Assembly: GCF_945873775.1 (NCBI RefSeq)
Contig: NZ_CAMCEC010000001.1
Location: 124,001 to 188,000, forward strand
Direction: 5' to 3'
DNA length: 64,000 nucleotides
Source of the DNA: an uncultured Treponema sp.
GTDB taxonomy: Bacteria > Spirochaetota > Spirochaetia > Treponematales > Treponemataceae
A program made the translations under genes and the position numbers. The first letter of the stretch is position 1; every line of letters begins with the position of its first letter. The notes under the pieces are model-generated. The model was not told the origin of the DNA, made no database searches, and saw only the letters and a list, made by a program, of their open reading frames with translations. Of the stretch, positions 3,215 to 27,760 are shown piece after piece.

Positions 3215-3955
3215 TTAGGAACAATTTATTTCTGCAACGTTAAACACATTAAAGAAATTTTTCAGCACGCAATTTTCAAGTTCTTCCATATTCATGCTGC
3301 GGAATTCGCAAGTCTTTTCGTAAACCTGCTTGATTTGAAGCGGGGAAGTTTTTTCTTCTCCTTTTAAAGTCTGATACGGAGCGTCGGTTTCTAAAAGAAT
3401 TCTTTCTAGCGGAAGTTCTTTTACACAGCCAATTGATTTTTTGTTTCCGTTGAGCAAAGGCTTTCCAAAAGAAAAATATGCGTTTATTCTGTGGTTCAAA
3501 ATTGAAACGGCATCTCTTGCAGTAAAAGCGAATGAATGGAAAACAACCGAAGCGCATTTTTTTAGAGCAGAAGAATAATAAAACGCAAGATCCAATGCCT
3601 TTCTGTCGTGAATTACAAGAGGTACTTTATGCTCCGTGGCAAGTTCAAGGCACACTTCAAATGCTTTTTTCTGCTGAGCTGCGCAAGATTTTAGTTCCGG
3701 CGTAAAAAAATCAAAACCTGTTTCTCCAACTGCAACAATTCTTTTTTTAATCAAAAGGCTTTCTAAAAAATCAACATTTTCAAGCAAAGGCTTCTGCGGA
3801 TGAAGACCAAATGCGCATAAAACTTTTCCGCTGCTTTTTGAAGCAATTTCTTCCTGAATAAAAAATTCTTCTTTTGAATGAGCGCATGAACAGCAAAAAT
3901 GCGCCGGAACAAAATTTTCACATTCAGCAATATGCAAATGGGAATCGCAAAGCAT
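3215..3955 (-). CDS. TatD family metal-dependent hydrolase
   Basis: The 246-aa protein carries TatD-family metal-site motifs in order. DSHLHI is at the N-terminus (the HxH pair), then VAVGETGFDFF (the Glu ligand), VIHDRKA (His), FHSFAFT (His) and LLETDAPYQ (Asp). The family comprises TIM-barrel DNases and related hydrolases. The protein is slightly shorter than E. coli TatD (about 260 aa), mostly in loops. GGAGG precedes the ATG. The gene is monocistronic and converges on the upstream lipoprotein gene. The substrate cannot be read from sequence. Confidence 0.85.
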   Translation of the reverse strand: MLCDSHLHIAECENFVPAHFCCSCAHSKEEFFIQEEIASKSSGKVLCAFGLHPQKPLLENVDFLESLLIKKRIVAVGETGFDFFTPELKSCAAQQKKAFEVCLELATEHKVPLVIHDRKALDLAFYYSSALKKCASVVFHSFAFTARDAVSILNHRINAYFSFGKPLLNGNKKSIGCVKELPLERILLETDAPYQTLKGEEKTSPLQIKQVYEKTCEFRSMNMEELENCVLKNFFNVFNVAEINCS

Positions 3956-17903: not shown

Positions 17904-18521
17904 ATGAAAAAGATTGTTTTTGTTGATATTTCCATGAAGGAAAAACTTGAAGCCGTTTCTTACGAAAACACTGGCAATGCCTGTTGCGCTTACAAAGTAC
18001 CTGTCGTATATCCAATAAATGCGGTGCTTTCTGAAAAAATCAAAAAAAATGAAGAAATAAAAATTGTTCTAATTCAGACAAAAGGAAACAGCAGCCTTGT
18101 AGAAAAAAACACAAAAATTTTTCAGACTGAACTTGAAAACATAAATGCAAACATTGGAGCAAAAATCGAATATTCATTTATTGAAACAAATTACGAAGAG
18201 TTAAAATCAAATAATGAAAATCGATTAAAACTAATGCTTTCCCAGATTGAGGAAAATTCAGAACTATATGCAGATATAACTTTTGGTCCGCGCACAGTTC
18301 CAATGATTGTTCTATGTGCATTTTCGTTTGCTGAAAAATTCTACAATTCTGATATAAAAAAAATTATATATGGCAAAGTTGACTGGAAAGATGGAAAGCC
18401 AAAAAATCCAGAGCTTTATGATGTAACCTCGCTTTACTATCTAAATTCTTTCACTTATTCACTTGCATCAAATTCAAGACAGAAAGCATTAAAAAGTCTG
18501 GAAACTTTCTTTTCTCTGTAA
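17904..18521 (+). CDS. CARF-domain protein, TM1812-like (candidate cyclic-oligoadenylate sensor)
   Basis: This 205-aa protein resembles the TM1812 branch of the CARF superfamily. It has an N-terminal Rossmann-type strand (KKIVFVDIS) and the diagnostic ADITFGPRTVPM at residues 123-134, matching the D-[IV]-T-x-G-x-R motif. IIYGKVDW and LYDVTSLYYLNSFTYS follow at about 154-186, as in TM1812 proteins. CARF domains usually bind cyclic oligoadenylates made by type III CRISPR-Cas. No effector domain is fused, and no cas gene or CRISPR array is visible here. It is seven bases upstream of a sigma-like gene, so it may regulate transcription. The DNA is much more AT-rich than valS. Confidence 0.66.
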   Translation: MKKIVFVDISMKEKLEAVSYENTGNACCAYKVPVVYPINAVLSEKIKKNEEIKIVLIQTKGNSSLVEKNTKIFQTELENINANIGAKIEYSFIETNYEELKSNNENRLKLMLSQIEENSELYADITFGPRTVPMIVLCAFSFAEKFYNSDIKKIIYGKVDWKDGKPKNPELYDVTSLYYLNSFTYSLASNSRQKALKSLETFFSL

Positions 18522-18528
18522 ATTATAT

Positions 18529-19281
18529 ATGAACAGCTCAAGCAAAATTTTTTATTCAAAAATAAATTCCATTTTCTCTGAAATTCAGGAAACTTCAAAT
18601 CCGCAAGAAAAAAATAACTTGATAAGGAAACTCACTATTATTATTTGGAATGAATTAAACACCAGCTGGAACAGAAAATATAATATAGAAGAATATGCGT
18701 TAGAAATAACAAATTGTATTATTCAATGCACAAAACTTTTTGCAAAAGAAAAAGGTCGTGAGTTTTCAAATTATGTTATTGCGGCTTTAAAAAATGAACT
18801 TAAAAATACAAGGAAAAAAGAAAAGTCCTATTCGAAAAATCAAATCCCAATAGTTTCATGCAATGAAAAAGATGAAGAAAATTATATAACCGATTTTTTT
18901 CCACTTTCTGTAAATTATAAGAAAAACATTTCAGATGAAGAAAAGTATTTCATCTTTGAAGAATTAAAACAATCTCTAAAAATTTTAAATTCAGCTATTC
19001 AAAAAGAAAAAGAGAACAAGGAACTAAAATCAGCGTTTATAACAAAAGATGTTTTAACACAACTTGATAAAAAAAACTTTCTGGAAATAGACTTAGAGAA
19101 AATCATTGCACTAGAAAAACAATTTTCGTTTTTAAACAAAAAGATTTGGCAGGATTTTTTTTCAGAAAAAGAACTTCCTACCCAAGAAATGATAGCAGCA
19201 GTTTTCGGATGTTCAAAATCAAATGCAAGCAAAATGATGTCAAGATTCTATGAAAGATTAAAAAAAACTATATTAAAGTAG
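18529..19281 (+). CDS. Sigma-70-like transcription factor (small, divergent)
   Basis: The 250-aa protein looks like a divergent sigma factor. Residues about 35-100 resemble region 2, with KGREFSNYVIAALKNEL recalling the FxxYxxxxIKNEL pattern. The C-terminus (about 214-245) forms a region 4-like helix-turn-helix: PTQEMIAAVFGCSKSNASKMM followed by a basic helix. The middle is Lys/Glu-rich and unlike region 3. It starts seven bases after the CARF gene and is surely co-transcribed. CARF control of this factor is an attractive inference, by analogy with other cOA-to-sigma circuits, but nothing in the sequence proves it. Confidence 0.55.
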   Translation: MNSSSKIFYSKINSIFSEIQETSNPQEKNNLIRKLTIIIWNELNTSWNRKYNIEEYALEITNCIIQCTKLFAKEKGREFSNYVIAALKNELKNTRKKEKSYSKNQIPIVSCNEKDEENYITDFFPLSVNYKKNISDEEKYFIFEELKQSLKILNSAIQKEKENKELKSAFITKDVLTQLDKKNFLEIDLEKIIALEKQFSFLNKKIWQDFFSEKELPTQEMIAAVFGCSKSNASKMMSRFYERLKKTILK

Positions 19282-19300
19282 ATTCATGTTTAATTTAAAT

Positions 19301-19329
19301 TTCATAAAAACTATTTTTCATGTTATACT
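19301..19329 (+). promoter_or_regulatory. Promoter giving a leaderless Abi transcript
   Basis: TTCATA (19301-19306) and TATACT (19324-19329) are 17 bases apart. The ATG follows the -10 box after only six bases, so transcription would begin at or beside the start codon. No Shine-Dalgarno is present. Confidence 0.5.
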
Positions 19330-19335
19330 TTTAAT

Positions 19336-20292
19336 ATGTACAGTTTACAGGATTTAAAAACCCATCTGCAGGAAAAGCATAATCTGAAAATCAATCCAAA
19401 TCAGGAAAAAGACCTTAGGAAAATCGGATATTACCATGGCTACAAAGGCTACCGGTTCGTAAGAAAATCAAACAATCCTATTTCCTTTACAAATTTTTCT
19501 CAGGTAGTCGCGCTGAATGATTTTGACATGCAGTTGAAAGGTCTTTTTTATCCGAATCTTATGTTCATTGAAAATGCCCTGAAAAATTATGTTCTTGAGG
19601 CAACTCTTGCCGACAGCCAAAGCGAAAACCTTCAGGAAGTTTTCAACAAGTCGCTTACCTATTATAAGGAATTTAAAACCGGAACCGCGGCATACAAAAA
19701 AGAATTCAAAAGAAAAATGGATCTCCAGATGAAAATAAATTCCGCCCTTATCCGAGATTATATGTCAGGAAAAGAAATCGAGACTCATTTTTACGAAAAC
19801 GGACGTGAAGTTCCTGTCTGGGCTGCGTTTGAAAGCTTGTCGCTTGGAGAATTCGGCACATTTTTCGCCTGCTCAAATAAAACAATAAGGCTTGAAGTTT
19901 CAGAACTTTTAAAGCTTCCGACAAACTTAAACGCTGATGGATTTTTACTGAAAGACATTATTTTTGTTCTGAAGGATTTGCGAAATGCAATTGCCCATAA
20001 CGGAATAATTTTTGACACACGGTTTGCCACAAGCGAAGCCGGAAAAAACATCAAGACTCTTCTGGAAAACGAACTGAAAATAAAACAAATTGATTTTAAT
20101 TTTATCATTTCTTATGTCGCACTTGTCTGTTATATTTTAAAACAATTGGACGAGTCAAAAAGAATAAAAAGTTTCGTGAATGAATATCAGAAAATCCAAA
20201 AAATGACTGAAAGGCTTCCTGTAAGTCAAAACCTGATTTTCGGAACACAGGATAAAAGCATCGCAGAAAAACTGCATTCATTGTGCAAATAA
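19336..20292 (+). CDS. Abi_2-family (AbiD/AbiF-like) HEPN protein
   Basis: The 318-aa protein matches Abi_2 abortive-infection proteins. It has an N-terminal IGYYHGYKGYRF block (residues 30-41), NDFDMQLKGLFYPNLMFIENALKN (about 61-84), and VPVWAAFESLSLGEFGTFF (about 159-177). The C-terminal LRNAIAHN carries R216-x4-H221, the catalytic HEPN RNase motif. Abi_2 proteins give phage resistance in lactococci, and the HEPN fold is related to that of Cas13. It seems to be leaderless. GC content is higher than in the two genes upstream, suggesting a separate origin. Toxic RNase activity is inferred. Confidence 0.78.
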   Translation: MYSLQDLKTHLQEKHNLKINPNQEKDLRKIGYYHGYKGYRFVRKSNNPISFTNFSQVVALNDFDMQLKGLFYPNLMFIENALKNYVLEATLADSQSENLQEVFNKSLTYYKEFKTGTAAYKKEFKRKMDLQMKINSALIRDYMSGKEIETHFYENGREVPVWAAFESLSLGEFGTFFACSNKTIRLEVSELLKLPTNLNADGFLLKDIIFVLKDLRNAIAHNGIIFDTRFATSEAGKNIKTLLENELKIKQIDFNFIISYVALVCYILKQLDESKRIKSFVNEYQKIQKMTERLPVSQNLIFGTQDKSIAEKLHSLCK

Positions 20293-20405: not shown

Positions 20406-22424
20406 TCATTCTTGCCTATTTTTTACAATATTCAGCTGCTCAACTAAATGATATTCTGCCCTAGAATCATTCATGTTATAAAACCAGTTATGATTAAAGC
20501 GGTTTATTGTTTCTTGATTTCCGCCTGAACCGATTACAAGACTAAAAAAATCTGTATTCTTCTTTTTTTCAATTTCAATTTTATTTTCCAAATCTTCATC
20601 AAGATTGTCCATAACAAAATCACTAATCATAAGCACATCTGCATTTTTCCAGTTTTCAGTTTGCAAAAGTTTTACAGCATGTTCAAGAGCTAAACAGGGA
20701 TCAGTTCCGCCGTTAAATGATTTTCTCAAAAACTTAACAAGAGTAGATAAAACTTCACTGTTAGTTTTGTCTTTAAAACTCAAATCCAGTGTTTCAATAT
20801 CTGTAGAAAAACTGATTAAATAACAGCTGCATTTTTCTTGCAAAGCAATTTTAGAAAGCGCAAACGTTATTGTCTTTGCTATATTTTCTGGAGTTCCGTT
20901 CATAGAACCGCTTGTGTCTACGCATATTACAACAGGACCTTTTTGCTCTTGTTTTTCCTTGGTGATTTCTTCTGTTTGAATTTCATTTTTTTCTTCAGGA
21001 ACGAAAGTTTCATACTTGAATGACATAAGCTGATTTTGCGCAAACTTTAATTCAAAAAGTTTTTTTGTCGCTGGACTTGAAAACATTGCAAGTTCAGAAG
21101 GCAAAACAGAAGAAATATCGCTAGACATTCTAATGCCAGAGATTTGGCCTTTGTATGCAGGCTTGGGGTTCCATTCATTTTTTACAATTACTTTTTCACT
21201 AACTTCTTTTTCATATATCCGCTGAATTCTATTATGTTTTCCTAAAATTGCTGCAAATTCATTTAGAGATTTATCTTTCTCAAGAAAATCCGCATACTGT
21301 CTTAAAATTTCAAAACCACTTTCATTAAAAAGTCCTTTTGACAAGTCCCACAAAAATCCAGTTTCGTCAAAAATTCTGCAAAGAAGATTTTCAAGTTTCT
21401 TGAATTTTTCCAATTTCTCAAAAAATTCTTTTATAAATTTTTTCCGCATTTCTTCAATCAATTCAAGCTGCCATGCATTTTTTCTTTGTATCAAACTTGA
21501 CTCAAAATCTTCAATCAACTTATCTGAAACTGCTTGAATTTTTATTTTCAGTTCTTCTTTATACTTTTCAGATTTTTTTGAAATTTTAATTTTTTTGTTT
21601 ACAAACTCTTTTTTCTCTTTAATCTCTAAAAATTTCTTGTTATAAAAATCAAAATTAAATTTTTCATCAGATATTTTCTCATAATCCTTTTGAATCTGCA
21701 AAATAGAATCCGCAATTTCTTCTGACTTTTTATTTTTCAAAGAAGAAACAAATGCCGCTTCCTTTTCAAATGGATTTTCTTTTGAAAGACGGCTGTCAAC
21801 ATTTTTTATCCACTCAAGCAAATCATCTTGAATATTTTTTGCAAGCCCTTCATGCTTTTGAATGTATGCAGAATTTTCTTTTCTTGTGAATATTTCTTCA
21901 AGACTTTGCTTTGCAGCTTGGGAAAATTTATTTTCAGGAAAGTCAATTTTTTCTGATTCTGACAAACTTGAAGAACTGCAGAAATCCTCAATTGCGTCTA
22001 AAAGCTGCTGGCGTTCAGTTTCATCTCCACAAACAGGAGTTCCAAATTTTCTAAAACGACGGCGATTAGAATTTGAGTTTTCTTTTGGCAAAAGATTTTC
22101 AAGTTCCGATTTTATTTTAGGCAAGACAGGAAAAACATCCTTCCACAAATTCTCAAGTTCTGGCTGTGAAAATTCCTCTGTATTATGAGAAATGTTGTTT
22201 CTGATTTTTCGGAACATTCCAAGTTCTTTGATATTCGTCTTTTTGCGGACAAGTGGATTCTGAAGATTTTGCACCAAAATTCTTATTTGATCATTTATAT
22301 ATGCAGAATCTTTTTCATTTAATTTTTCTACACTGGAAATTTTATCCGAATACTCCAACAGTTTATTCAAAGGGTTTAAAGTTTTATATATCTGATTTTT
22401 AAATTCTTTGTAATTTTGTTTCAT
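20406..22424 (-). CDS. viaA: ViaA-like VWA protein with an N-terminal HEPN-like extension
   Basis: The last 350 of 672 residues follow E. coli ViaA closely. They contain ETGFLWDLSKG (about 354-364), a QYADFLEKDKSLNEFAAILG-like helix pair, SDISSVLPSELA (about 435-446), the MIDAS motif DTSGSM (503-508), FNGGTDP and MISDFVMDN. ViaA partners the MoxR-type ATPase RavA. The first 115 residues are absent from ViaA and look like a HEPN domain: helical, with MFRKIRNNISHN giving R75-x4-H80. Residues about 120-315 are coiled-coil. Such a HEPN-ViaA fusion is unusual. It lies eight bases after ravA, in one operon; Lys/Glu and AT content are very high. Confidence 0.82.
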   Translation of the reverse strand: MKQNYKEFKNQIYKTLNPLNKLLEYSDKISSVEKLNEKDSAYINDQIRILVQNLQNPLVRKKTNIKELGMFRKIRNNISHNTEEFSQPELENLWKDVFPVLPKIKSELENLLPKENSNSNRRRFRKFGTPVCGDETERQQLLDAIEDFCSSSSLSESEKIDFPENKFSQAAKQSLEEIFTRKENSAYIQKHEGLAKNIQDDLLEWIKNVDSRLSKENPFEKEAAFVSSLKNKKSEEIADSILQIQKDYEKISDEKFNFDFYNKKFLEIKEKKEFVNKKIKISKKSEKYKEELKIKIQAVSDKLIEDFESSLIQRKNAWQLELIEEMRKKFIKEFFEKLEKFKKLENLLCRIFDETGFLWDLSKGLFNESGFEILRQYADFLEKDKSLNEFAAILGKHNRIQRIYEKEVSEKVIVKNEWNPKPAYKGQISGIRMSSDISSVLPSELAMFSSPATKKLFELKFAQNQLMSFKYETFVPEEKNEIQTEEITKEKQEQKGPVVICVDTSGSMNGTPENIAKTITFALSKIALQEKCSCYLISFSTDIETLDLSFKDKTNSEVLSTLVKFLRKSFNGGTDPCLALEHAVKLLQTENWKNADVLMISDFVMDNLDEDLENKIEIEKKKNTDFFSLVIGSGGNQETINRFNHNWFYNMNDSRAEYHLVEQLNIVKNRQE

Positions 22425-22432
22425 AAAAAAGT

Positions 22433-24064
22433 TTAAATATATTGCCCGCGGATTTTATTCAAATCACATCCTGCCTTTTCAAGTTCCAACCTAGGCTTTT
22501 CAACTGCCTTTAAAATAACTTTACGCATTTTTTGATCTGCAAAAAGATTCTCTCTAAAAGGAGCAGATTTTTCAGAAATATAATTATCAACTTCTTGGAT
22601 GCTCGTTTTTATAGATTTTAAAATTGAATTATATTTTTCATCAGCTTTTTTTTGACGAGTTTCTTCAAAATCTGGATATTCTTCAAAAACTGGATTTTTT
22701 ACAAGTTTATCTGAATAATCATCTTCTACATAAAACTCTTTCTTTATTTCATTCTTAAACTCTTCTATCTCATCACATATATCATTAACTGCAATGTCAA
22801 CTTCTAGTCCGTTCTGCTCGACACAATCTTTTACAATTTGTTCTGCTTCTTCAATTTGATTTTCTGTGTTCCAGATACAATACTCAATAAGCTGACAGTC
22901 CATTAGGTCAACTGAATTTCGTCCATTCAGAAAGGCAGAAGTTTTTAGGATTTTTATAATTTTTTTCCAGCGGCGATCAGAAACATAAAACTTTTCGTTT
23001 TCTTGTCGTTTTTTTTCTTCATTTTTGCGAGACAATTCATGCCTTATTTTACTGATAACATTGCGGACTTCATCAGGAATTTTAATTTTTTCTATTTTCT
23101 CTGTCCAGTCTTCAAGCTCAGAAGTTGAAATAAGATTTTTTTTCATTGAATCAGTCGGCTCAAGTTCCGCTTTTACTTTTTCGCCATAAAGAAACTTTTC
23201 AAAACCCTCATCATCCTGAATTGGATTTACAATCGCACGAATCAAAAATCTGTCCCATAAAGCTTCAAGACCTTGATTTTTTACAGGAAGTTCGTTGCTT
23301 GCTGAAATCAAGGCTTTTAATGGAACTGCATTTACATTGTTTCCGTTGTGAAATTTCTTTTCATTCAAGATTGTCAAAAGAGTGTTCTGAATCGCAGGAC
23401 TTGCTTTCCAAATTTCATCCAAGAATGCAACATTTGCTTCTGGAAGAAAACCTTGTGTAATTCGCTCATATTTATTTTCTTCCAAAGCCTTTAGCGACAC
23501 CGGTCCAAAAATTTCATCTGGTGTAGAAAACTGGTTCATCAGATATTCAAAATAAGAAACTGACTTTTCATCTTCGTCTTTAAATGCCAACTTAAGGCGG
23601 CGGCTCACTAAACTTTTGGCAGTTCCTGGAGGTCCAAGAAAAAATATGCTTTCTCCAGCAATGCTTGCTAAAAGCGCCAAACGAACAGCTTCATCTTTTT
23701 CAATTAAATCTTTGCCTATAAATGAAAGAAGTTTTTTTATTCTCTCACGCAATGGAATTCTATCTTCTTTGTTTGTTTCTTTTTTCAAAACTTGACTTTC
23801 AGACTTTTGAATGTTTTTTACAGAATCATCTTGTTCTAAAGAATTTTTTAGTTTTACATACGATGTGCCATGCTCATCTTTTTCAAAATAAATTTCTGGA
23901 ATTGCTTTTAATATATCTGTAATGCTTTTTGTGCCGAACACCTGCTCTAAATTTTCAACAGTTATGCCTTTCTTTTTTAATTCATCTTTTATTGTAGACG
24001 GATTGCATTTTTGCTTTCCTGAAAGAAAATTTTTTATTTCTATTATAATTTCTTCTTTTTCCAT
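22433..24064 (-). CDS. ravA: RavA-like MoxR AAA+ ATPase with N-terminal LOTUS-like domain
   Basis: The 543-aa protein has a MoxR AAA+ module. Walker A GPPGTAKS is at 144-151, Walker B VAFLDEIWK has Asp-Glu at 216-217, and sensor ASNELP is followed by LWDRFLIR. After it comes the RavA hallmark VSDRRWKKIIKILKTSAFLNGR. The first 75 residues are extra and resemble an OST-HTH/LOTUS RNA-binding winged helix (VFGTKSITDILKAIPEIYFE, then SYVKLK). The ATG at 24064 has AGGAAG eight bases away; the in-frame ATG at 24091 overlaps the -10 box and cannot serve. RavA-ViaA pairs are chaperone-like; this one may act on RNA. Confidence 0.85.
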   Translation of the reverse strand: MEKEEIIIEIKNFLSGKQKCNPSTIKDELKKKGITVENLEQVFGTKSITDILKAIPEIYFEKDEHGTSYVKLKNSLEQDDSVKNIQKSESQVLKKETNKEDRIPLRERIKKLLSFIGKDLIEKDEAVRLALLASIAGESIFFLGPPGTAKSLVSRRLKLAFKDEDEKSVSYFEYLMNQFSTPDEIFGPVSLKALEENKYERITQGFLPEANVAFLDEIWKASPAIQNTLLTILNEKKFHNGNNVNAVPLKALISASNELPVKNQGLEALWDRFLIRAIVNPIQDDEGFEKFLYGEKVKAELEPTDSMKKNLISTSELEDWTEKIEKIKIPDEVRNVISKIRHELSRKNEEKKRQENEKFYVSDRRWKKIIKILKTSAFLNGRNSVDLMDCQLIEYCIWNTENQIEEAEQIVKDCVEQNGLEVDIAVNDICDEIEEFKNEIKKEFYVEDDYSDKLVKNPVFEEYPDFEETRQKKADEKYNSILKSIKTSIQEVDNYISEKSAPFRENLFADQKMRKVILKAVEKPRLELEKAGCDLNKIRGQYI

Positions 24065-24089: not shown

Positions 24090-24120
24090 ATTATAGTAAA
24101 ACTTTTTCGGGGGGGGGCAA
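24090..24120 (-). promoter_or_regulatory. ravA promoter containing a nine-G homopolymer tract
   Basis: On the minus strand TATAAT (24090-24095) lies 19 bases downstream of TTGCCC (24115-24120). Nine consecutive C (24109-24117; G on the plus strand) form the end of the -35 box and the start of the spacer. Changes in tract length would alter spacing; 17 bases would be optimal. In Treponema pallidum, poly-G tracts in such positions change transcription. Confidence 0.55.
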
Positions 24121-24224
24121 GAGGTATTTTGTTTTTTTATAAAAATTCAAAAATAATAAAAATTTGTGTCAACTTTTGAAAAATGCACAGCTATATATAT
24201 TTAGAAATAAAAACGGGAGGTTAT

Positions 24225-24758
24225 ATGTTTCTAAATATTTTGGTCTGGATTGGAATTGGAGCATTGTGCACACTGGGAGTTGCATTTGTAATTTTTTTAA
24301 CAAAAGTTTTACGCACTTTATATGAAAAAATTTTTAAAACCGACAAAAACGAACCTGAGTTTCAAATAGATTTTAAATCACAGTCAAAAAACATTATCAT
24401 CCTGCCGCCAAACTTTCACGCGTTTCTAAAAGAAACAGGACGAATTAAGCAAAAAGGATTTTCTGAAAGCATTTTGGAAATTGAAAGATTACGTTCAGAG
24501 TTTTGGAAAAAAGATGTTGTCTTGCCACAAGTAAGACTTTGTTATTACAACACAGAAAAATTTGAATTGAAAATCAAAATTGAAGGCAACGAAATTTTCA
24601 AAGGGAACTTCAAAGAAAATTTAAGCGATGAAGAAAAACTTCAATTTATTATACAAAAAATAGAAGAGTATCTTCTAAAAAAAGAAGAGCGTGTTAAAGA
24701 TTGTGTTAAAGATTTAAACATAAATATTATTAAAGAACTATCATACAAAGGATGGTAA
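24225..24758 (+). CDS. Membrane-anchored hypothetical protein, divergent from ravA
   Basis: This 177-aa protein begins at an ATG preceded by GGGAGG. It has one N-terminal membrane helix (FLNILVWIGIGALCTLGVAF), a basic stretch, then about 130 soluble residues rich in Lys and Glu. No family was recognised. The topology suggests a cytoplasmic domain held at the inner membrane. It is divergent from ravA across a 160-base AT-rich region with the poly-G tract and is four bases upstream of the next gene. Position suggests, but does not prove, a partner of the RavA-ViaA pair. Confidence 0.6.
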   Translation: MFLNILVWIGIGALCTLGVAFVIFLTKVLRTLYEKIFKTDKNEPEFQIDFKSQSKNIIILPPNFHAFLKETGRIKQKGFSESILEIERLRSEFWKKDVVLPQVRLCYYNTEKFELKIKIEGNEIFKGNFKENLSDEEKLQFIIQKIEEYLLKKEERVKDCVKDLNINIIKELSYKGW

Positions 24759-24761
24759 AAA

Positions 24762-25388
24762 ATGGATTGCACTTCAATTTTTGAAAAGAACGGACTGTTC
24801 TTTAAATGTTCACATTTAGAATCTGATATTTTCTTAAGCAAATTTAAAAACAATGATGCTTTCAGTTTTTGCAAAGGTTTACTTGAAGCTGGAAATGACT
24901 TTATTTTTGAAAAAACAATTTACGACATAAATAACTATTGGAACTATAATTTCATTTTTGGAATAAAGATAAAACCAGAGTCAAAAATTAAAGCACAATT
25001 TTTATTGAAGTATAAAAAAATTAAAGAAAAGTTTTTTGAAGGCTTCTGGAAATATCCCGGTATCGAAGTTCAAAATTGTTATTCTGGAACATTTTCAAGT
25101 ATTTTAAGGTATGAAATTCCCAAAGAAGAATTTTCCAGTGAATTTACTAAAATTAACAAAGCTTCAAATAATATTAATTTTGCTCATACTCATTTTTCTT
25201 TTGAACCGAAAAGCAAAATGATTTTAGTTGAAAATATTTTTTTAAGCTATGATTTATACGAGTTAAAACTTTCAGAAAAATTATTGTGCAGGAACGATGA
25301 AAAACAAAAGAAGTTTTTCCTGCAAGGCAATGAAATTATGCCGGTATTAGAAAAAATTCAGAAACTTGAATTTTCAAATATTGAATAA
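24762..25388 (+). CDS. Hypothetical protein of the RavA-ViaA island
   Basis: The 208-aa protein has no signal peptide or membrane helix and no motif that I recognise. It is rich in Phe, Lys and Asn with alternating hydrophobic strands, suggesting a beta-containing fold. The middle has FAHTHFSFEPKSK, whose two His residues might be functional. The start is three bases after the previous stop, with GGATGG upstream, so the two are co-translated. AT-rich codon use matches ravA and viaA rather than the core genome. Confidence 0.55.
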   Translation: MDCTSIFEKNGLFFKCSHLESDIFLSKFKNNDAFSFCKGLLEAGNDFIFEKTIYDINNYWNYNFIFGIKIKPESKIKAQFLLKYKKIKEKFFEGFWKYPGIEVQNCYSGTFSSILRYEIPKEEFSSEFTKINKASNNINFAHTHFSFEPKSKMILVENIFLSYDLYELKLSEKLLCRNDEKQKKFFLQGNEIMPVLEKIQKLEFSNIE

Positions 25389-25411
25389 ATTTTCAACTGC
25401 AATACATGAAT

Positions 25412-25443
25412 AAAACAGTTTTCCCCATCAAAGCTGTTTTTTT
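25412..25443 (+). terminator. Rho-independent terminator
   Basis: AAAACAG pairs with CTGTTTT around a 15-base loop, followed by more T. It ends the two-gene unit begun at 24225. Confidence 0.6.
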
Positions 25444-25473
25444 ATAAATAACTTTTATCCATGGAGATGAATT

Positions 25474-26109
25474 ATGAAAAATTTAAAATCACTTTTTTTA
25501 TTAACAACACTTACAATATCCTTATGCTTCAATTCTTTTGCATTAGAAACAAGCAACAGTAAATTCAAGACTTCCGTAGTATACAGCTCTTCAGAAGTAG
25601 TTGAATATGTTGATGAAATTGAACTTCCAATCAGACAAATGGATTATGGCATTTATTTTGATGACTTCAATAGAGTTGTTGCAAAATCAATTCGTAAAGA
25701 AGCAAAAAAGCTTTTTGAAGAACAGGAGAAATCAAAAGAAGTTTCAAGAATTGAAGACATTGTTACACCTATTTACAAAATCACTGAAGATCAAACTTCG
25801 TATTCAGACTGCTATAATTGCAATTATGAATATTTGAATTGCGACAAAAAAAGAGACATAACAAAACCAGTTCATTTCTATGATGATTTGGGCAGAAAGA
25901 TTTCTGATAACTTGAATATTGAAGCAAATAAAATTTATAACAAACAGCTTCGCCAAGAAGAATGGGAAAGCTGGAAAGATATTGATTTAAAACTGCTTTG
26001 GAATGGATTCTGGACTGTTATATCATTCGCACTCTGTACCGCAATAATAGTTCTTGGCATAACATTCGTAATAAAAAAATTAAAAGAAATAGACATCATA
26101 AACGAATAA
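25474..26109 (+). CDS. Exported protein with C-terminal membrane anchor, unknown function
   Basis: The 211-aa protein has a signal peptide (SLFLLTTLTISLCFNSFA) and one C-terminal membrane helix (about residues 177-202), followed by a short basic tail. The bulk should therefore face the periplasm and be held in the inner membrane. It contains a Cys/Tyr cluster, SDCYNCNYEYLNC, with three Cys that could bind metal or form disulfides. No family was recognised. GGAG precedes the ATG. It has its own terminator on each side, so it is a single-gene unit at the edge of the AT-rich island. Confidence 0.6.
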   Translation: MKNLKSLFLLTTLTISLCFNSFALETSNSKFKTSVVYSSSEVVEYVDEIELPIRQMDYGIYFDDFNRVVAKSIRKEAKKLFEEQEKSKEVSRIEDIVTPIYKITEDQTSYSDCYNCNYEYLNCDKKRDITKPVHFYDDLGRKISDNLNIEANKIYNKQLRQEEWESWKDIDLKLLWNGFWTVISFALCTAIIVLGITFVIKKLKEIDIINE

Positions 26110-26225: not shown

Positions 26226-26256
26226 CTAGAAAGCCTGCCTGTGCTTCAAAATTTCA
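26226..26256 (+). repeat. 31-bp direct repeat, left copy
   Basis: It starts CTAGAAAGCCTGCCTGTGCT and is matched with two mismatches at 27626-27656, exactly 1,400 bases away. The pair brackets the variable-protein gene and its upstream tandem repeat. Confidence 0.75.
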
Positions 26257-26330: not shown

Positions 26331-27200
26331 TTACTTACCTGTGTTGCGGACAATGCGGAAGCCCAGGTTGAGGTAGGCGTTACAGGCGTAGTACCAGCCC
26401 TTGTAGCCCACCTCGCAGTAGTCGGCGTCGTCGTACCAGCTGCCGCCGCAGTCATAGCGTCCGCTGCTGTTGTTGGGGTTGCAATCCCAGAGATACTCGT
26501 CCAAATCTCCGCACCATTCCCACACGTTTCCGCTCATGTCATACAATCCGTAGCCGTTAGGAGCTTTCTGTGCAACGGTGTGTGTTTTTTCTTCGCTGTT
26601 GTCATTATACCAGGCAACTTCATCTAAGTTGTCGCTTCCGCTGTATTTGAAATCCTGTCCGCCTTTTTCCGCGTACTGCCATTCTTCAACTGTAGGCAGA
26701 CGGTAGCCGTTTGCTGTAAAGTCGCAGGCAAAGTCTTTGTTGAACTTTTTCCATTCGTTTTCCGACCAGTTGCCCATTTCATCATTGTCCAAATCCCATT
26801 GAGCAGCGTTCGCGCTTTCCTTGTATGAGTAGCAAGGATTCAAGCCGTCTTTTTCACTCAGTTTGTTGCAGAACTTAACTGCGTCAACCCAGCTCACGTT
26901 TTCCACAGGAAGGTTCTTTTCGCCATTGAACTCGCTTGGATTCTCGTCCGTTACAGACTCGTAAAGTTCCTGTGTAACTTCCGTTGCAAGAATAGAATAG
27001 TTCTGCCCCGGAACCGCAATCATAAGATCGCTTGCCTTGTAGTTTCCCTTTTCAAGAACTTTCTGCACGTCAAGCTTTTTCTGCCCGTATGCAGTACAGA
27101 GCGGAACTGCAAGCAGCGCAAGCCCGCACAACAGCTTTGCAAAAGACAGCCTACTCTTGTGGTTGCCAGCCAAGCTAAAAGATTTTTTCAAACTTTTCAT
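26331..27200 (-). CDS. Secreted FGE-sulfatase/SUMF1-fold protein, putative DGR variable protein
   Basis: This 289-aa protein has a long signal sequence (core LLCGLALLAVPLC) and a formylglycine-generating-enzyme (C-type lectin) fold. Marks include TEVTQELYESV, NLPVENVSWVDAVKFCNKLSE, GYRLPTVEEWQYA, GLYDMSGNVWEW and GGSW...LGFR. It is probably a binding protein, not an enzyme. The final 40 residues are rich in Tyr, Asp and Asn at the positions that vary in DGR targets such as Treponema denticola TvpA, and their DNA is far more GC-rich. AGGAG precedes the ATG. No reverse transcriptase or template repeat lies in the window. Confidence 0.82.
   Translation of the reverse strand: MKSLKKSFSLAGNHKSRLSFAKLLCGLALLAVPLCTAYGQKKLDVQKVLEKGNYKASDLMIAVPGQNYSILATEVTQELYESVTDENPSEFNGEKNLPVENVSWVDAVKFCNKLSEKDGLNPCYSYKESANAAQWDLDNDEMGNWSENEWKKFNKDFACDFTANGYRLPTVEEWQYAEKGGQDFKYSGSDNLDEVAWYNDNSEEKTHTVAQKAPNGYGLYDMSGNVWEWCGDLDEYLWDCNPNNSSGRYDCGGSWYDDADYCEVGYKGWYYACNAYLNLGFRIVRNTGK
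26345..26470 (-). other. Putative DGR variable region (VR) at the gene's 3' end
   Basis: Codons after GGCGGCAGCTGG run TAC GAC GAC GCC GAC TAC TGC, then later TAC AAG GGC TGG TAC TAC GCC TGT AAC, ending CTG GGC TTC CGC. Nearly all variable codons are NNC forms derivable from AAC by adenine mutation. GC is about 62% across 26341-26460 by direct count, against 47% at 26641-26700. Confidence 0.6.
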
Positions 27201-27389
27201 TTTTTTACTCCTCTTAATCAGCTGCTTTTTTTATAGAATAAACAACCAGCGACAACAAGTCAAATTTTTCTGTCTCTGTCATAAGATAAGACTCTTTGTA
27301 TCCACTGTCCTTACGCTAATAACAGTCTCTTCACTCCCTTACATACTGCTTTGGTTGCCCCTCTCCACTGCTTGTGAATCCCTAAAATC

Positions 27390-27580
27390 AACTTAATTTT
27401 GTTTTGTTTTTAACTTAATTTCATTTTAATTTTAAGTTGATTTCACTTTGATTTTAAGTTGATTTCATTTTTATTTTAACTTAATTTTGTTTTGTTTTTA
27501 AGTTGATTTCATTTTGTTTTTAACTTAATTTTGTTTTGATTTTAAGTTAATTCCATTTTGTTTTTAAGTTGATTTCATAA
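27390..27580. repeat. 22-bp T-rich tandem repeat, about 8.7 copies
   Basis: Eight consecutive 22-base units follow the pattern AA[CG]TT[AG]ATTT[TC][GA]TTTT[GAT][TA]TTTT, with a partial ninth. Units alternate between AACTTAA and AAGTTGA forms. T-tracts recur near the helical repeat, so the DNA is probably curved. It fills the middle of the 550-base gap 27201-27760 between the DGR-like gene and glyA; nothing else was recognised in that gap. Confidence 0.85.
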
Positions 27581-27625
27581 ACCATACATACCTCGTTCTA
27601 TACATATAAAGCATAACTGTGCAGA

Positions 27626-27656
27626 CTAGAAAGCTTGCCTGTGCTTCAAAAGTTCA
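27626..27656 (+). repeat. 31-bp direct repeat, right copy
   Basis: It starts CTAGAAAGCTTGCCTGTGCT and differs from the left copy (26226-26256) at two positions. The copies are in the same orientation. Confidence 0.75.
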
Positions 27657-27760
27657 GCTTACTTGCGGAAAGAGCTAGATTCAACTAGAATGCTAAAAAG
27701 ACTTTCAAATGTCTGTTAGTATTTGAAACTGTCCAAATTTCATAAAGCGAGGTGAGTCCA

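Follow-up and report, generated by a model that had tools for sequence, protein, structure and literature searches.

What would a RavA-ViaA pair be doing with an RNA-binding type of domain on one partner and a predicted RNA-cutting domain on the other? The question is raised by two adjacent reverse-strand genes in an uncultured Treponema sp. (contig NZ_CAMCEC010000001.1, positions 124,001 to 188,000; this whole stretch of 64,000 nucleotides is called the window below), one encoding a MoxR AAA+ ATPase at 22433..24064 and the other a VWA-domain protein at 20406..22424. Earlier work on RavA-ViaA treats it as a respiratory and membrane chaperone. Because the pair found here joins an RNA-binding-type domain to a predicted RNA-cutting domain, and adjoins a sensor and a sigma-like factor, it looks like an undescribed RNA-attacking immune machine. 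Our answer is that it probably belongs to an accessory, partly mobile system of the abortive-infection type, in which a CARF-sigma switch would activate an AAA+/VWA machine that bears a HEPN ribonuclease.

The ATPase and its VWA partner

Both open reading frames (ORFs) are found at the positions reported in an earlier sequence-only reading of the window, and the 3' end of the ATPase gene abuts the start of its partner. The ATPase has 543 aa when started at 24064, a start favored over the ATG at 24091 because AGGAAG stands upstream of 24064. The RavA profile NF010054 aligns with E = 3.4e-98 to aa 114-429 in the numbering of the longer ORF, under the model's full-length cut-off, and the MoxR family bpMoxR (PF20030) with E = 1.2e-52; AAA_lid_8 matches as well. 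The AAA+ core and lid thus placed cover approximately aa 105-420 (22805..23752, minus strand) and have intact Walker motifs, GPPGTAKS at 144 and DEIW at 216 in the same longer numbering. Since the NF010054 alignment covers the model only as far as position 307 of 498, the C-terminal part of RavA that binds LdcI (LARA) is unmatched. The C-terminal additions of RavA vary among relatives, being Lcl_C, FGE-sulfatase or CBM48, and at five loci one of these lies on a RavA homologue or on the next AAA gene. In one relative, L021/L135, RavA starts like a signal peptide.

Ahead of the RavA-like part, which begins at about residue 105, the ATPase has an extension of approximately 100 residues. The AlphaFold2 model of aa 1-86 has a predicted local distance difference test (pLDDT) score of 82.6, and Foldseek gives LOTUS domains for all of its best 21 PDB matches with probabilities of 0.98-1.00, among them Oskar 5a48 (E = 0.013, probability 1.00) and TDRD5. 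VIA-align scores the model against TDRD5 at Z = 10.2. The LOTUS sequence profile PF12872 matches weakly, in 1 of 11 members with E = 0.016, and a PDB profile search with the LOTUS alignment gave nothing usable, an absence that carries no evidential weight. On the model, then, the N-terminus is predicted to have the winged-helix LOTUS (OST-HTH) fold, with the domain at aa 1-74 (23843..24064, minus strand).

The VWA protein has 672 aa, of which aa 177-651 (20472..21896, minus strand) align to the ViaA profile NF008230 with E = 1.3e-71, again under the full-length cut-off. All motifs of the metal ion-dependent adhesion site (MIDAS) are intact, namely DTSGS (503), GGTD (572) and SDF (601). Here too there is an N-terminal extension, of about 150 residues beyond ViaA, and it contains the only R-x4-H of the whole protein, RNNISH at 75-80 (R75 codon 22200-22202, H80 codon 22185-22187). 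In the HEPN active-site signature Rx4-6H the R is followed by a polar residue, in most cases N, D or H (PMC3710099). ViaA homologues were gathered from Treponema-genus genomes and public genomes; the named organisms with the closest VWA proteins are Treponema species. Over aa 1-124 of 15 aligned homologues, only R9, L16, R75, N76 and H80 are conserved in at least 90%. In a set of 23 from three phyla (17.3 effective), picked for full-length N-termini and with L021/L135 as the known exception without the motif, R75 and H80 are conserved in 100% and N76 in 94%, although the Fibrobacter, Bacteroidales and Leptospiraceae members have just 17-29% identity to the window protein in the HEPN region.

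The AlphaFold2 model of this region has a pLDDT of 84.8, and VIA-align with aa 1-145 finds HEPN toxins in all of its best six entries at Z up to 9.9, which is modest, as Z below 13 can arise by chance for helical bundles. The Pfam scan of the homologues is led by HEPN_Swt1, RiboL-PSP-HEPN and HepT-like (the last at 1e-5). As with LOTUS, a PDB profile search with the HEPN alignment returned nothing usable and is given no evidential weight. The motif and the predicted fold jointly indicate a HEPN domain at approximately aa 1-120 (22065..22424, minus strand), which is likely to be catalytic. HEPN-ViaA forms a supported clade (n = 25; 100/98) drawn from Spirochaetota, Fibrobacterota and Bacteroidota, and a second small HEPN lineage has three members. 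The sequence-only reading had described the ATPase as a RavA body with a LOTUS-shaped N-terminus and its partner as a ViaA core with a helical N-terminus bearing R75-x4-H80, and had proposed to compare predicted structures with the two folds and to follow R75 and H80 through homologues; the profiles, models and alignments above bear it out on both proteins, and neither of the outcomes that it had named as refuting was obtained.

Most relatives have one more component, a gene of about 92-108 aa related to the HEPN domain that sits between RavA and ViaA. Some relatives have the motif RNRLVH or RNRLLH in it, whereas in others the motif is degenerate; the R is lost in L070, L072 and L118, and both R and H are retained in L019, L059 and L123. 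The window has no such small HEPN gene between RavA and ViaA.

The CARF-sigma-Abi_2 operon and the relatives' promoter

Converging on the pair from the other side is a plus-strand operon at 17904-20292. Its first gene (17904..18521) encodes a 205-aa CARF-domain protein, a putative signal sensor, with a DITFGP signature; it matches PADLOC CARF2--CARF over the whole protein with E = 5.2e-77 and NCBIfam TIGR02221 with E = 1.9e-12. Directly after it is a sigma70-like factor (18529..19281), for which the window protein alone reaches E = 2e-4 against TIGR02937, below the cut-off, and a profile built from the family matches SigA, RpoD and RpoS structures with E from 1.9e-7 to 1e-3. The third gene (19336..20292) encodes an Abi_2/AbiD HEPN protein with the motif RNAIAH (Pfam Abi_2 E = 3.2e-28, PADLOC AbiD E = 1.3e-22).

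Of 200 genomes of the genus, 45 have the CARF gene, and the sigma-like gene directly follows it in 36 of the 40 loci with readable downstream sequence, a count that is partly circular because the sigma profile was built from the same loci; the matches to SigA and RpoD structures are independent of this. Ten relatives have CARF, sigma, RavA, in some cases the small HEPN, and ViaA in one locus on the same strand, and the CARF locus continues into RavA-ViaA in two more, L080 and L019, the latter with a truncated sigma gene. Abi_2 stands beside CARF-sigma or beside ViaA at six loci, and is convergent with ViaA in three relatives (L080, L106, L130) as it is in the window. Other cassettes can follow CARF-sigma: Abi_2 (three loci), a VWA-PP2C-kinase set resembling TerY-P with helicase genes (two), VWA-Card1 (two), DnaJ-VWA (L084) and MoxR-DUF2201 (L079). 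At L087 the module precedes Cas6-Cas10-RAMP, and also at L091 as judged by gene sizes and a Cas10 match. VWA proteins recur strikingly among these cassettes. From its gene order the CARF-sigma module is possibly a general transcriptional defence switch placed ahead of varied cassettes.

Relatives have a shared non-canonical promoter, [AG]TCAACT-N16/17-CTAAT[AT], upstream of their CARF and RavA genes; its exact form is TGTCAACT-N16-CTAATA. In 914 kb of locus sequence it occurs 21 times versus 0.45 in dinucleotide shuffles, a test that is partly post hoc because the motif was spotted by eye in the same regions. The spacing is nearly fixed, with 24 of 31 loose matches at one spacing. Placement in whole genomes is the better evidence: over 32 of them the exact N16 form has 0-3 copies per genome, and in carriers it is repeatedly located about 35-75 nt upstream of RavA or CARF, before both in G125 and before either in ten others. 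Non-carrier genomes have about 0.5 scattered exact matches per genome.

In the window a variant, TGTCAACT-N16-CTATAT, lies on the plus strand at 24167..24196 and faces not RavA but the divergent gene starting at 24225. This gene is the first of three small unassigned genes at 24167-26109, divergent from RavA, which may belong to the same regulon; the genome-wide control for the loose TGTCAACT-N16-CTATAT pattern was not significant.

Distribution, a proposed mechanism and its alternatives

ViaA relatives, fragments included, are present in 28 of the 200 genus genomes, and 16 genomes share CARF and ViaA (p = 1.6e-5, by a test that ignores shared ancestry). Plasmid pTS2 of T. saccharophilum carries the set, restriction genes of type I, IIG and III are among the neighbours at other loci, and the window has a low-GC block at 18-26 kb, 0.28-0.34 versus 0.37-0.48 in most flanking kilobases. 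The distribution points to a system that is accessory and partly mobile. The phage search gave one distant CARF match, on an unverified human-faecal 'phage' scaffold (MT835511.1), and the viral contigs searched gave distant VWA matches only. In that scaffold (L200 8001-15548) a sigma-like ORF, a VWA ORF and ORFs resembling a phosphatase and a kinase come after the CARF match.

The mechanism that we propose begins with the single-domain CARF protein, which would bind a signal that arises in infection, either a nucleotide or an RNA end, and, with ligand bound, would free or activate the co-encoded sigma70-like factor. From the dedicated promoter that factor would then transcribe the operon in which it is encoded, and in relatives also that of RavA-ViaA. 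RavA, presumably a hexameric MoxR ATPase, in this lineage with LOTUS at its N-terminus, would partner ViaA, the VWA domain of which may bind RavA or a substrate via the MIDAS metal. ATP-driven assembly on the RavA hexamer could juxtapose the HEPN ribonuclease domains, either one with another or, in the many relatives that encode it, with the small HEPN partner. R75 and H80 of paired domains would then make up a joint RNA-cutting site, leading to dormancy or abortive infection. The role of LOTUS may be to retain structured RNA or a partner to which RNA is bound. In its widest form the proposal is that a CARF-controlled, dedicated sigma70-family factor transcribes a LOTUS-AAA+/VWA-HEPN machine, converting a nucleotide alarm into ATP-gated RNA degradation, and that the same switch is reused before TerY-P, Card1, Abi_2 and type III CRISPR; this we put forward tentatively, as falling somewhat short of probable. 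The sequence-only reading had suggested that the pair may deliver an RNase to RNA under the control of ATP hydrolysis. The architecture behind that idea is upheld, the cleavage itself keeps the conditional standing it has in our scheme, and the CARF-sigma switch was missed; with the switch adjoining, the chaperone that delivers an RNase is recast as a signal-controlled RNA-targeting defence system. On sequence and models together the earlier interpretation is, overall, supported.

Several observations weigh against the CARF-switched defence system. In the window the RavA-ViaA pair is convergent with the CARF operon, not downstream of it, and RavA has no copy of the promoter directed at it; with only the variant promoter present, the regulatory tie there is drawn from relatives. 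Foldseek gives no significant HEPN match for the N-terminus of the VWA protein (E > 1), and this, with the modest Z, is why we depend on motif and fold jointly. Locus L021/L135 keeps the pair with R-x4-H lost from ViaA and with SH3-like and transmembrane segments in RavA. LOTUS is missing in about half of the relatives, the RavA homologues of L019, L072, L073, L077, L094 and others beginning at the ATPase core, hence it is an optional, exchangeable module; of the two fusions that the sequence-only reading had proposed to look for in homologues, HEPN is the constant one. Finally, a search with PF22335 finds no Cas10, as a source of the signal, in the window genome, which is 99.9% complete.

The layout of the window is also what would be seen if CARF-sigma-Abi_2 and RavA-ViaA were unrelated defence modules in a common island, with no functional tie. 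CARF-sigma-Abi_2 occurs without RavA-ViaA at L057 and L065, and five HEPN-ViaA loci (L098, L100, L102, L103, L104) have no CARF nearby. We regard this as unlikely in view of the same-strand order in ten relatives, the shared promoter and the repeated convergence of Abi_2 with ViaA. Another way to read intact RavA and ViaA cores is that HEPN lacks catalysis and serves for pairing or for binding RNA, and that the pair remains a chaperone, which would act on a respiratory complex or on one containing RNA and play no part in defence. The E. coli pair acts on fumarate reductase and on membranes (PMC10585395, PMC9489729), the small HEPN is degenerate in three relatives, and L021 retains the pair despite motif loss. 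Against this, few positions are as constrained as R, N and H in a domain that otherwise drifts, the linked genes are those for CARF, sigma, Abi_2 and restriction, not respiratory ones, and the distribution is patchy and partly plasmid-borne, so we find a pure chaperone distinctly unlikely.

The frequent small HEPN gene between RavA and ViaA, with its R lost in L070, L072 and L118, suggests yet another arrangement, in which HEPN-ViaA and the small HEPN would be a toxin-antitoxin-like pair and RavA would dismantle the inhibited complex. That is quite improbable for a window that has no small HEPN gene, and for L019, L059 and L123, where the small protein retains R and H. As for RavA-HEPN-ViaA being an ancillary effector of type III CRISPR-Cas activated by Cas10 cyclic oligoadenylate, the CARF-sigma module does precede Cas6-Cas10-RAMP in L087 and, in L091, an operon of similar organisation, and CARF co-occurs weakly with Cas10 in the 200 genomes (p = 0.03). 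However, ViaA and strong Cas10 matches come together in 1 of the 28 ViaA genomes, strong meaning below approximately 1e-8, a judgement made with PF22335 also matching apparent diguanylate cyclases, and the CRISPR-linked CARFs diverge from the window CARF, with about 38-44% identity to the seeds. With Cas10 absent from the window genome and not tracking ViaA, we rejected this as the principal explanation and consider it very improbable.

Known systems and further features of the island

The E. coli MoxR AAA+/VWA pair shares with the window pair its adjacent genes, the ATPase core and lid and the ViaA core with MIDAS, and differs in having neither the added N-termini nor CARF-sigma neighbours nor the patchy occurrence, and in the LdcI-binding part that goes unmatched here. 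We regard the CoCoNuTs, McrBC-derived and RNA-targeting (PMC11090510), as the nearest analogue, since a single defence locus there combines an AAA+-fold motor and a HEPN RNase with VWA/TerY-P modules and with CARF regulators. Their motor is McrB, whereas here it is MoxR/RavA, and their regulator is an RtcR-type CARF-AAA-HTH protein with sigma54, whereas here it would be CARF with a sigma70-like protein. The CoCoNuT hallmarks, an McrB-like GTPase, McrC and a coiled-coil nuclease, have no match among eight genes tested at 17.9-26.1 kb. In CalpL-CalpT-CalpS, a sigma-factor switch of type III CRISPR (PMC11229360), a nucleotide-sensing domain controls a sigma factor, as is proposed here, but by a SAVED-Lon protease and an anti-sigma factor, not a bare CARF beside sigma in a genome without Cas10. 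Csx1 and Csm6 unite CARF and HEPN in one RNase, which here are separate proteins of what may be one pathway, tied by transcription and the AAA+/VWA machine. The MoxR-vWA conflict systems (Kaur et al. 2020, PMC7159879) have the MoxR-VWA core, but no RavA-ViaA linked to CARF, HEPN or LOTUS is described there, CARF and HEPN being only in the reference list. In the open-access papers searched we found none linking RavA-ViaA to HEPN, LOTUS or CARF. If the proposal is true, MoxR/VWA chaperones would be tied to RNA-targeting immunity, the VWA partner would gain a definite catalytic cargo, and sigma70-type transcriptional signalling would be a reusable output of CARF sensing, with a dedicated promoter that makes the regulon directly testable.

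A G9 homopolymer tract at 24109..24117 (plus strand), 45 nt upstream of the RavA start, is one of two G/C runs of at least 9 in the 64 kb. Locus L109 has a G14 run at 3945, just upstream of its RavA gene, and the sequence examined has few such runs. In Treponema pallidum, poly-G tracts have been investigated as phase-variation elements (PMC7864442), and because rare runs of this kind stand just upstream of RavA, expression of RavA-ViaA may be phase-variable. No RNA families or tRNAs were found in the island. Farther along the window there is an AT-rich array with an 11-bp period of AAGTTGATTTC-like units at 27368-27609, upstream of a glyA-like gene at 27752, and a 31-nt direct repeat (94%) at 26226-26256 and 27626-27656 flanks the gene at 26331-27200.

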